A stretch of 44,249 bases of DNA from Acidimicrobiia bacterium (GTDB taxonomy: Bacteria > Actinomycetota > Acidimicrobiia > Acidimicrobiales > Bin134): positions 1 to 44,249 of the forward strand of contig JAJDTA010000171.1 in the NCBI GenBank assembly GCA_022827405.1, written 5' to 3'. Below, piece after piece: positions 17,149 to 21,686 of the stretch. The position numbers were made by a program, and so were the translations under genes. The notes under the pieces are model-generated. The model saw only the letters and a program-made list of their open reading frames with translations, searched no databases and was not told the origin of the DNA. Every line of letters starts with the position of its first letter. Within the stretch, counting starts at the first letter, position 1.

Positions 17149-18318
17149 ATGGTTTCTGAGGTTTTGACCAGGGGAAATGCGAAGACTGGCGTGTATGTCG
17201 ACGCAGTAGATGTCGCCGGGTTGGACGATGCTTCTCTGGACTTGCGGCTGCGCCTGATTGGACGGGCCCGCAATCAGTTAGACGGGTTCTTGGCCGAGGC
17301 GGTAGCAGAGAAGAAGCGGCGCACCACCCCCTATGACACCGCCAACACACTGAAGACTGAGCTGCGCCAGTCGGGCCAGCAGGCACAGCGCACCATGCGC
17401 CAAGCAGACCAACTCGAATCGCTGCCCGCGGCCCGAGGGGCGCTGTCTGACAGCCGGATCACCACTGAGCACGCCCGAATCCTGGGTACTGCCGCGGCGA
17501 GTGGCCCCCTCGACGAGTGCAAGATGGTGGCCGCCGCCGAGACCCAGACGCCTGAGCAGTTGCGCCGTACAGTACGCGAGCACCAGGACGAACTCTCCGG
17601 CGACGACGACGGCTCCAAGCGCTTCGAACACCAGCGGAAGGCCCGCATGGCCAGCTTCACCGAACAAGACGACGGCATGTGGCGGCTGTTCGCTCTATTC
17701 GATCCCGTTGCCGCCCAGGGCATCCGGGCCGCCCTGAACCACAAGACCGACATGGCGTGGCACGCCACTACCGGCCGAGAGCGTCTCGACGCCCGCCACC
17801 GGCGGGCCGATGCAATCGCGGAGCTGTTGACCCGAACCACCAACGGAGAAACCGGCGATCAGCCCCAGCCGACCAGCTTGTTGATTCTGGCCGACTACGA
17901 CGCCATAGACCGCCAACTCGGCCGGCCCCGCTTGGCTGATGGCACCCCGATTCCCCAAGACGAGTTCCGCAAACTGGCCTGCGACGCCGAAATCCTCACC
18001 GGCATCTTCGACGCCGACCTCCAATGCCTCTCACTAGGCCGCCAACGCCACCCGAGCCCCCAACTCCGAGCCGCCATCACCGCCAGAGACCAAGGCTGCA
18101 TCGGCTGTGGAACCGAACCCGAGTGATGCGTGTCCCACCACATCGTCGAATGGCAACACGGCGGCCCCACCCAGCAAGACAACCTCGTGCTGCTCTGCCA
18201 CCCCTGCCACCACAAAGCCCACCACCGCGACTGGACAGTCGCATACCACCCCGACACCAACCGCCCCTACCTCAAACCCCCCTGGCAACAACCCCCCAAA
18301 CCACCACCCAGACGCTGA
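17149..18318 (+). pseudogene. DUF222 / HNH endonuclease gene interrupted by an in-frame TGA
   Basis: The first 325 codons encode a DUF222 (13E12-repeat family) protein: LRLRLIGRARNQLDGFLAEAV, then LRQSGQQAQRTMRQADQL, then the start of the HNH domain with CIGCGTEPE. A TGA at 18124-18126 follows, and the same frame continues without shift as CVSHHIVEWQHGGPTQQDN, then LVLLCHPCHHKAHH, to a stop at 18316-18318. Relatives usually have Trp-Cys at this place, so a single TGG to TGA change explains it. The stop removes the HNH catalytic histidines. Other genes here use TGA as stop, so recoding is unlikely. The frame after the stop is well preserved, so the loss is recent, or a sequencing error. Confidence 0.85.
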
Positions 18319-19325: not shown

Positions 19326-20330
19326 CTAGTACCGATACCGGGGCCAGGGCGGGTGGATCGAGTACTCCACTACCCCGTAGCCCCGCTCGCCGGTCTCCAG
19401 CACCTCGAAGTCGAAGAACGGCTCGTGGCAGTCGAGCCGAACCTCGGCATCATTCTCGTCGCGCATGAGGCCGTTGCGGGTGTGGGCGTGCTTGCGGCCG
19501 GTGTGCACGGTGAGCACTTCGCCATCAGTCGTCTCGAAGGTCATGTCGAAGGCCATGGCGGTGCGCTGATCCTCCTCCAGACGAGGCACACACGTGGCCG
19601 ACCGAAGCGCACGAGTGCCCTCGGCGTCGCCGATCCAGCCGCCGACACCAGGGGTATCGCCAGGCAAGGGCTGAGTCGGACTCATCCACCCAAAGGCGTT
19701 CAAGTGCCGGTCGGGGAGCTGCACCGACGGCCAGAAGTGCCCCCACGACTCAGCCTGGGTACGACGATGCCGCACATCCCACGGCCCGGGCCGCTCGAAC
19801 CGATGCGTCCAGGAGTGATCCCGATGCGACCAGCACTCCACCGCGCGGCGCTCCCCCGCCCGGGGCCCGCCCCGAGACTCGAACTCGCCCCGGCACACCA
19901 GGGCCTGCTCGTAGTGGCCGCCATAACCCTCGTAGGCCCCCAGCGGATTCCCCCCGAAGCAGTCGTTGTAGTCGAACACGCCAAAGCGATCTTCGAAGAT
20001 CAGATCGAAGCCAAAGCGAGGGGCATCGAGCTGCCAGCGGTATCGCGAGAACGGCTCCTCCACGGAGTAGGACACCCGCCCGTCGCCCAGCACAGAGAAC
20101 TCCAGCTCATCCCCCAGCGGCTGGCGAGAACCCCACTGCACCGGCACGCCGTCGATGACGTAGAACGCGCTGGCCCGCAAATATCCGTGGGACAGGCTGG
20201 CATGGATGTGGTTGATGCCGTACACGTCGGCCTCCCGGTCGCACACCGAGAACCAGAAGTTGTCGCTCCACAAGGCATCAGAGCCCGGTGGCGGGGAATG
20301 GAGGTACTCGTCGGAGTTGCTGAGCGGCAT
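19326..20330 (-). CDS. DUF7064/DUF7065-type protein (AttH/CrtC-like double lipocalin fold)
   Basis: Encodes 334 residues from ATG at 20330 (a TTG four codons earlier is possible). The N-terminal part contains NFWFSVCDREADVYGINHIH and strand-rich segments; the centre has CWSHRDHSWTHRF followed by WDVR, a hallmark HRDHSWG-R-like motif of these proteins; the end is GYGVVEYSIHPPW. Relatives are annotated as hydroxyneurosporene-synthase-like or diacylglycerol/terpenoid-associated proteins, often beside P450s and acyl-CoA enzymes in actinobacteria; the reaction is not established. It diverges from the P450, with a 15-base palindrome in the shared 69-base gap. Confidence 0.75.
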   Translation of the reverse strand: MPLSNSDEYLHSPPPGSDALWSDNFWFSVCDREADVYGINHIHASLSHGYLRASAFYVIDGVPVQWGSRQPLGDELEFSVLGDGRVSYSVEEPFSRYRWQLDAPRFGFDLIFEDRFGVFDYNDCFGGNPLGAYEGYGGHYEQALVCRGEFESRGGPRAGERRAVECWSHRDHSWTHRFERPGPWDVRHRRTQAESWGHFWPSVQLPDRHLNAFGWMSPTQPLPGDTPGVGGWIGDAEGTRALRSATCVPRLEEDQRTAMAFDMTFETTDGEVLTVHTGRKHAHTRNGLMRDENDAEVRLDCHEPFFDFEVLETGERGYGVVEYSIHPPWPRYRY

Positions 20331-20346
20331 CGGGGACGACAATACG

Positions 20347-20399: not shown

Positions 20400-21686
20400 G
20401 TGGCCGATCTACCTCTTATCACCCCGATGCCCACGGTCGCCGACTGCGTGCTCCCTTGGGACGGGCCGGTCAGCGACACCGTGGCGGCCATCGGCGCCGC
20501 CCGGTCCGAATGCGGCGATACCTTCGTGATCGACAGCGGCGACGATCGTTACTTGTTCTTGTTCTCACCCACCGGCCTCAGGGACTTCTACGCCGTCCCC
20601 GAGCAGCAGGCCAGCAAGGGCATTGCCGACTGGAAGATGCTCATCCGCAAGCTGCCCGATGAGCTGTTCGACGGTCGGCGAACCCTGCCCCACGAGCTGT
20701 TCACCCGACCCAATGTGTCCGGCTACCTAGAAGCGCTGGAAGAGGCCATCTCGATCCAACTGGCAGAGCTGAGCCCGGGCGATGAGATCGATCTGTTCGA
20801 CTTCACCCGCCGCCTCGGCCACCGCATGGGCCTGGCCAGCTGGGGCGGCCGCGAGATCCTGCGCTCAGACAGATTCGAGGAGCTCATCGAAGCGCTTGAC
20901 GCGCTCGACGGGTCCGAGGCCTTCGTGGCCCCAACTCGGATGCAAGAAGTGGCCCAGTCGGGAAAGGCTGCCGAGTACGCCGCCATGGCCAAGGCCGAGC
21001 AGATCCTGGCCGACTCCATAACCACCCGCCGCCAACCCGTCGGCGACCTGCTCGACATGATCCTCGAACGATGGGCCGACGCCCCCGATTCCGAGCGACG
21101 GATCGGCGTGGCCCGGGACGTGATCTTGGTCCACATCGGATCGATGTCCAACCTGTTCGCCGCGCTCGGCTGGTCTCTTGTCCATCTGGTTCAGCATCCC
21201 GATGTGATCGCCCGAGTGCGGGCCGGCCAAGGCGACGATCACGACTTGGTGTCGCGCTGCACACTGGAATCGACCCGAATCGGCCAGCGATCCATCATGC
21301 TTCGCACCGTGCTCGAGCCCGTGACCATCGATGACGGCTCCCAGGCCTACGACGTGGCCCCCGGCGCCTCGCTGGCCACGTTCCTGCCGTTGACGAACAT
21401 GGAAGCCGGCCCGGGCTTGGATCGCTACAACCCCGACCGATGGAAGGGCCCCCGCCTGGTGTCTCCCGCGGGGCTGCCCTCCGAGTTGGTCATCACCTTT
21501 GGCGTCGGTCCCCACGCCTGCCCGGCCCGGCCCTTCTCGGTCACGGCGATGTCCCGAGTGATAGAGCGGCTATTCGACACCTACGACCTAACGCCGCTGT
21601 TCGATGATCCCAAGCCGCGCCCCGACCAAATCGGGGGTGTTGCCCGGGCTGCGGGGTCCTGCCGGGTGGCAGTGCGAGCCCGCTAA
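20400..21686 (+). CDS. Cytochrome P450, atypical I-helix (CYP7/CYP8-like features)
   Basis: Encodes 428 residues from GTG at 20400 (ATG at 20427 is an alternative); the upstream open frame is antisense to the neighbour and rejected. K-helix ExxR is E290-S-T-R293 and the heme loop is FGVGPHACPARPF with C374 as the thiolate ligand. The I-helix (240-262) reads HIGSMSNLFAALGW: no acid-Thr pair; Asn251 aligns with the Asn of the CYP7/CYP8 AN/GN motif, and the downstream Trp is also shared. P450s without the Thr are often isomerases or use substrate-assisted oxygen activation. The stop lies two bases from the convergent purM stop. Confidence 0.88.
   Translation: MADLPLITPMPTVADCVLPWDGPVSDTVAAIGAARSECGDTFVIDSGDDRYLFLFSPTGLRDFYAVPEQQASKGIADWKMLIRKLPDELFDGRRTLPHELFTRPNVSGYLEALEEAISIQLAELSPGDEIDLFDFTRRLGHRMGLASWGGREILRSDRFEELIEALDALDGSEAFVAPTRMQEVAQSGKAAEYAAMAKAEQILADSITTRRQPVGDLLDMILERWADAPDSERRIGVARDVILVHIGSMSNLFAALGWSLVHLVQHPDVIARVRAGQGDDHDLVSRCTLESTRIGQRSIMLRTVLEPVTIDDGSQAYDVAPGASLATFLPLTNMEAGPGLDRYNPDRWKGPRLVSPAGLPSELVITFGVGPHACPARPFSVTAMSRVIERLFDTYDLTPLFDDPKPRPDQIGGVARAAGSCRVAVRAR

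Follow-up and report, generated by a model that had tools for sequence, protein, structure and literature searches.

Cytochromes P450 carry an oxygen-activating threonine in the I-helix, and members of the superfamily without it reveal how the proton relay can be replaced or oxygen activation dispensed with. Described enzymes with Asn at this position include the animal proteins CYP7A1 and CYP8B1, which act in bile-acid synthesis and go under the PDB names 7-alpha-monooxygenase and 12-alpha-hydroxylase, as well as prostacyclin synthase (CYP8A1) and OxyB. Here we compare these systems with a P450 encoded in the window, by which we mean the whole 44,249-nucleotide stretch of Acidimicrobiia DNA that was analysed (Table 1).

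Table 1. Positions in the window of the P450 gene, its diagnostic segments and its neighbours
Feature	Coordinates	Strand	Basis or remark
F420-type LLM oxidoreductase, TIGR03619	18382..19275	-	199 bits vs cut-off 166.9; linked in near relatives only
Divergent neighbour, DUF7064/Rv3169-like	19326..20342	-	Below curated cut-offs; linked in near relatives only
Cytochrome P450 gene, 428 aa, GTG start	20400..21686	+	Open frame, Pfam PF00067, relatives' starts, AlphaFold2 model
B-C loop (SRS1)	20595..20675	+	Unusually conserved: 10/27 columns invariant vs 2/27 in both control P450 families
I-helix motif HIGSMSNLFAALGW, residues 245-258	21132..21173	+	H245, S248, S250, N251, A255 and W258 invariant in 31/31
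Asn251, position of the I-helix oxygen-activating Thr	21150..21152	+	Codon and alignment
K-helix ExxR, E290-S-T-R293	21267..21278	+	E and R invariant in 31/31
Heme loop FGVGPHACPARPFS, ligand Cys374, CPA in place of CxG	21498..21539	+	Family alignment
C-terminal SRS6 stretch RPDQIGGVARA	21618..21650	+	Family alignment, segment conservation

An actinobacterial P450 family

The P450 gene of the window is intact, its frame being open from 20400 to 21683 and closed by a stop. We place the likely start at the GTG at 20400 because the same codon is ATG in all 13 relatives for which a start codon was printed; a longer, 777-aa open frame from 19353 is the P450 frame extended, antisense to the neighbouring gene. 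The product scores 31.5 bits against PF00067 (curated cut-off 22.8), the heme ligand C374 and the ExxR residues E290 and R293 that mark the superfamily are invariant across the 31 aligned members, and an AlphaFold2 model predicts the P450 fold with confidence (pLDDT 90.2, pTM 0.89). A phmmer search found no PDB chain at 1e-3, which makes the protein remote from solved P450s. Judged from these sequence features, the gene encodes a genuine, probably active cytochrome P450. Its heme loop is nonetheless distinctive: the place of the CxG Gly is taken by Ala376, invariant in 31/31 members, whereas CxG is kept in 33/33 further P450s aligned from this genome.

Scanning 84,980 species genomes with two peptide seeds, an approach by which remote members may be missed, recovered 55 loci, all with titles that are either actinobacterial or unspecific ('bacterium', Sva0996). 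Most carriers are Acidimicrobiia bins, joined by Nocardioides, Marmoricola, Mycobacterium, Mycolicibacterium and Antrihabitans; Nocardioides marmorisolisilvae and Antrihabitans cavernicola are cultured. The 31 aligned members (L084, with a stop within its coordinates, was left out) are 49-92% identical to the window protein, to which alone identities were computed, and thus exceed, relative to that protein, the 40% above which P450s are placed in one CYP family according to the rule in PMC3599690. Matches at 1e-3 occurred in 23 of 60 related genomes, with only those of at least 56% identity belonging to the family and the rest at 24-34%; the best of these non-family matches reached 34% over a short stretch. 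The family is also rare, being found in 3 of the 396 genomes of a phylum sample at 1e-15 (the window's own included), while a second sample gave two matching genomes out of 296 at 1e-8, namely the window's own and G110, in which the I-helix reads AGHHT and is CYP51-like. A literature search from which most subscription journals were absent returned no paper that could be tied to these proteins. As far as searched, therefore, the family is undescribed, a variant on a known superfamily; it is a small, distinct group of actinobacterial P450s, matched to no named family and apparently unnamed.

Several side observations concern individual genomes. That of the window is P450-rich and of Acidimicrobiia type, with 44 Pfam p450 matches (some of them pieces of one gene) in 3.77 Mb. 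At L103:6600-7141, P450 homology stops right after SIMLR and the frame continues into unrelated sequence; this is a broken or misassembled family member. Contigs titled Bifidobacterium breve (L099, L102, L104) have the same neighbour clusters as the Mycobacterium/Mycolicibacterium loci and are probably mislabelled bins.

The distal I-helix site and the substrate pocket

The sequence-only reading held that this P450 lacks the I-helix threonine, and the family bears this out. Asn251 sits 16 residues ahead of the Pro of HPD, where P450s carry the I-helix Thr; the acid position of the helix is Ser250, likewise invariant in 31/31. Asn occupies the Thr position in all 54 relatives that cover the site, out of 55 related loci. 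The I-helix search expression fixed the two Ser and the Trp and left the Asn position free, and 26 of the 54 Asn-carrying relatives are without the VH[LI]GSMSN seed peptide, so the invariance is neither circular nor a matter of chance or a sequencing slip. In an alignment with 33 further P450s from this genome, the position (read by eye) holds Thr in 31, Ser in 2 and Asn in none; that alignment drew on 32 stretches from the 44 p450 matches, with one spurious row dropped and at least 3 of the 44 omitted at contig ends (C50, C147:97, C207).

Aligned from the Pro of HPD, Asn251 coincides with the Asn of CYP7A1, CYP8B1 and prostacyclin synthase, as had been proposed, and Trp258 with their Trp, a residue that CYP51 has as well. 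Beyond this shared pair, CYP7A1 (ASQANTIPATFW...NP) has both Ala255 and Ser248 in common with the window P450, CYP8B1 (ASQGNTGPTSFW...HP) has Ser248, and prostacyclin synthase (ATQGNMGPAAFW...NP) has Ala255. The sequence-only reading also noted that enzymes of this kind include both isomerases and steroid hydroxylases. An enzyme that isomerises or dehydrates a hydroperoxide or endoperoxide, working independently of O2 like prostacyclin synthase, would agree with the Asn/Trp pattern common to that enzyme and with its third place among the Foldseek hits described below; however, the ordinary hydroxylases CYP7A1 and CYP8B1 carry the same Asn, so that the residue is no pointer to an isomerase, CYP51 fits as well, and the annotated neighbours (annotation being partial) include no lipoxygenase or other peroxide-making gene. 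We hold such an enzyme to be improbable. Equally improbable, in our estimate, is the broader proposal that a Ser-Asn distal site became fixed in a bacterial P450 family, apparently in parallel to animal CYP7/CYP8, and serves a rearranging or O2-independent reaction with a dedicated substrate of the sterol, terpenoid or peroxide type; if true, this would provide a bacterial counterpart to prostacyclin-synthase-type chemistry.

The missing Thr would also suit a one-electron oxidant or coupling P450 that removes electrons or hydrogens from an aromatic substrate and couples it, as do the glycopeptide Oxy enzymes, CYP121 and ApyO, since such chemistry can do without Thr-based proton delivery. OxyB, with its Asn, appears among the weak PDB matches, and the NCBIfam ApyO model matches 22 of the 31 members weakly (best 5.1e-11). 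The score against that model (NF050147) is, however, 37 bits vs a cut-off of 525, and the match is a general one, since ordinary P450s from L087 and L078 match the model too; nor are there RiPP or NRPS genes among the annotated neighbours. ApyO itself forms a Tyr-Tyr C-C bond (PMC11117315). We regard a coupling role as unlikely, although sequence does not separate the rivals, coupling and O2-free rearrangement.

Conservation of the pocket offers a further view of function. With pocket segment limits taken approximately from motif spacing, and with the family represented by its rows from FAM8 onward (23 of 31, closest kin excluded), B-C loop identity is 0.68 at a mean identity of 0.53, vs 0.33 (mean 0.53) and 0.48 (mean 0.48) in two control P450 families of related genomes, mean identities being taken to the reference. 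The same comparison gives 0.82 vs 0.74 and 0.73 for the I-helix, 0.82 vs 0.77 and 0.65 for SRS5, and 0.75 vs 0.81 and 0.37 for SRS6; the heme loop is less conserved in the family than in the controls (0.71 vs 0.86 and 0.84). The conserved pocket segments suggest one conserved substrate or reaction, and their unusual degree of conservation would fit a single defined substrate for the family. They also bear on the idea of a P450 fold that has given up catalysis and acts as a partner or binding protein: the replacement of the Thr, the acid and the CxG Gly together would be expected of such a protein, but its heme Cys and ExxR would hardly stay invariant, nor its pocket segments so well conserved, and we consider it very improbable.

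Position relative to CYP7/CYP8 and CYP51

Structure prediction, which had been proposed as a check, places CYP51, CYP8A1 (third) and CYP8B1 among the top Foldseek hits of the model, with CYP7A1 close behind. A second structure comparison ranks CYP51 first at Z = 32.2 (rmsd 3.4, 394 aligned), followed by CYP7A1 at 31.0 (3.5, 412), CYP8A1 at 30.9 (3.6, 411) and CYP8B1 at 30.5 (3.4, 409), rows within 1 of each other being tied. The predicted structural likeness to sterol P450s is one of fold, at 12-19% identity. In profile searches CYP51 came first at 1.5e-12, ahead of CYP170A1 (albaflavenone synthase) at 2.2e-10 over the C-terminal half, CYP7A1 at 1e-5 and prostacyclin synthase at 9.5e-5; the CYP170A1 NCBIfam model matches 30 of 31 members weakly, far under its 700-bit cut-off. 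By hhalign, the family scores 131 against CYP51, 89 against CYP7/8 (97% probability) and 42-84 against ten groups of P450s from its own genome.

The trees leave the family on a deep branch. A first tree of 56 rows, in which CYP51 and CYP7/8 were the only outside groups, joins the family with both against 33 own-genome P450s (100/99). In a second tree of 40 rows, with ten more bacterial P450s and 15 own-genome P450s, the latter fall on one side (99/97) and the family emerges from an unresolved fork with a branch of 2.16, its grouping with the own-genome side being weak (72/78). The AU test rejects neither a clade of the family with CYP7/8 (p 0.205) nor one with CYP51 (p 0.388). We conclude that the family forms a deep, long, unplaced P450 lineage and that its Asn is not usable as a sign of CYP7/8 descent. 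The phylogeny advised by the sequence-only reading thus leaves CYP7/8 kinship unrejected and the clade unsupported; placement inside a standard monooxygenase family, which would have spoken against that reading, was not observed, the family lying outside every standard family found.

If the family were truly a bacterial offshoot of CYP7/CYP8, this would explain the ASx(S/A/G)N...W match, the hhalign probability and the clade's survival in the AU test. Yet the family aligns better with CYP51 than with CYP7/8, and CYP7/8 itself scores much higher against CYP51 (183) than against the family. Moreover, three residues shared by all three CYP7/8 chains, Gln263, Pro268 and Phe271 in A3 numbering, are absent, their places being taken by Met249 (few Leu), Ala254 (few Ser) and Gly257 (one Ala); the CPA of the heme loop likewise differs from the CxG of CYP7A1, CYP8B1 and CYP8A1. 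We therefore think shared descent highly doubtful. The CYP7/CYP8-like label is partly supported: it is true for motif and fold, without demonstrated kinship, and CYP51 fits as well or better by Z and hhalign. CYP51, the sterol 14-alpha-demethylase of bacteria and eukaryotes, for its part has the Trp nine residues before the Pro, as in the window P450, but differs in its AGHHT I-helix with Thr and its CxG, vs GSMSN or ASMSN and CPA in the family, at ~16% identity.

A search for the CYP7/8 motif at the DNA level was set aside because the pattern is too short, a reversed control having matched about as often; hmmsearch with a CYP7/8 profile slightly favoured the family over own-genome P450s, at a median of 8.5 bits too low for use; and the same profile gave no match under 1e-12 in the window's genome. 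Its 16 matches in 296 genomes were judged by I-helix to be CYP51-like or other, mostly Thr-type, P450s. The I-helix alignment holds 31 rows with letters (L143 and L159 being one gene) and one gapped row; among the 31, Asn occurs only in L166, an actinobacterial P450 of another type, outside the family, that reads AGTENT, so Asn at the Thr position recurs elsewhere. A viral structure search returned general P450s only, and a plasmid search no match.

Gene neighbourhood and proposed function

The DUF7064-like and F420-type genes had been taken to hint at a lipid or terpenoid reaction. The former adjoins the P450 in 11 of the 55 loci and the latter in 9, in close kin only, and both are missing from loci whose P450s are still 83-85% identical (L062-L066); since they stand beside the P450 only in close relatives, they give no clue to function and do not point to a pathway in common, and we dropped them as such after checking the 55 loci and further relatives. 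Elsewhere the surroundings vary: the P450 lies beside ylxR and DUF4439 genes in L086, beside what we take from its sequence to be purM in the window genus (the gene after the window P450), beside TauD genes in L103, beside FadD and acyl-CoA dehydrogenase genes in L095, beside an SDR in L072, and beside a second P450 and an SDR in L087. Among the annotated neighbours there is no conserved partner gene across the family loci, and no redox partner was seen adjacent to the P450. The gene is an orphan, and any leaning to lipid catabolism is suggestive at most.

Other features of these loci are worth recording. In the Acidimicrobiaceae group (L067-L071, L100), a Rieske oxygenase (C14) and a PaaX-type regulator (C17) adjoin most copies, and in Antrihabitans cavernicola the P450 is preceded by a cutinase gene (PF01083; L105:5204-5968). 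Within the window, the gene at 17149-18126, presumably of the 13E12/HNH type from its motif and with no Pfam match, ends at an in-frame stop right before an HNH-like stretch (CVSHHIVEWQHGGPT) that is open in the same frame; two relatives have frames of 388 aa vs its 325, and the stop is either premature or a sequencing error.

We put it at slightly better than even that the family comprises O2-dependent monooxygenases, fed by a ferredoxin, that act on one conserved hydrophobic substrate through a Ser250/Asn251 relay replacing the acid-alcohol pair. The substrate would be sterol-, terpenoid- or lipid-like; the invariant Ser250 and Asn251, with bound water, may deliver protons to the ferric-peroxo intermediate, Ser248 and His245 perhaps forming part of the relay, and hydroxylation would proceed despite the Asn, by analogy with CYP7A1 and CYP8B1. 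The predicted fold, the heme Cys and the ExxR agree with monooxygenation, as do the persistence of Asn among relatives down to 48% identity to the window protein, the conserved B-C loop, the sterol enzymes at the top of the structural neighbours and the lipid-type genes beside some copies (L095, L072, L087). CYP107A1 has Ala for the threonine, in a position called critical to its function (PMC10741444). Against monooxygenation stand a fold likeness that extends to fold only, the varied settings of the gene (housekeeping genes such as ylxR and purM, Rieske/PaaX, TauD) with neither conserved partner nor adjacent redox partner, and a Thr loss equally consistent with non-oxygenating P450s.

Compared with the typical actinobacterial P450s of its own genome, the window P450 belongs to the same superfamily and is likewise soluble and of similar length, but those enzymes have Thr or Ser together with CxG in 33/33. 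Asn-for-Thr is instead a fixed family trait in these actinobacterial P450s, shared with the animal sterol enzymes CYP7/CYP8. A soluble bacterial family with fixed Asn, Ser and CPA, and with cultured carriers, could thus offer a tractable model of the relay in CYP7A1 and CYP8B1.
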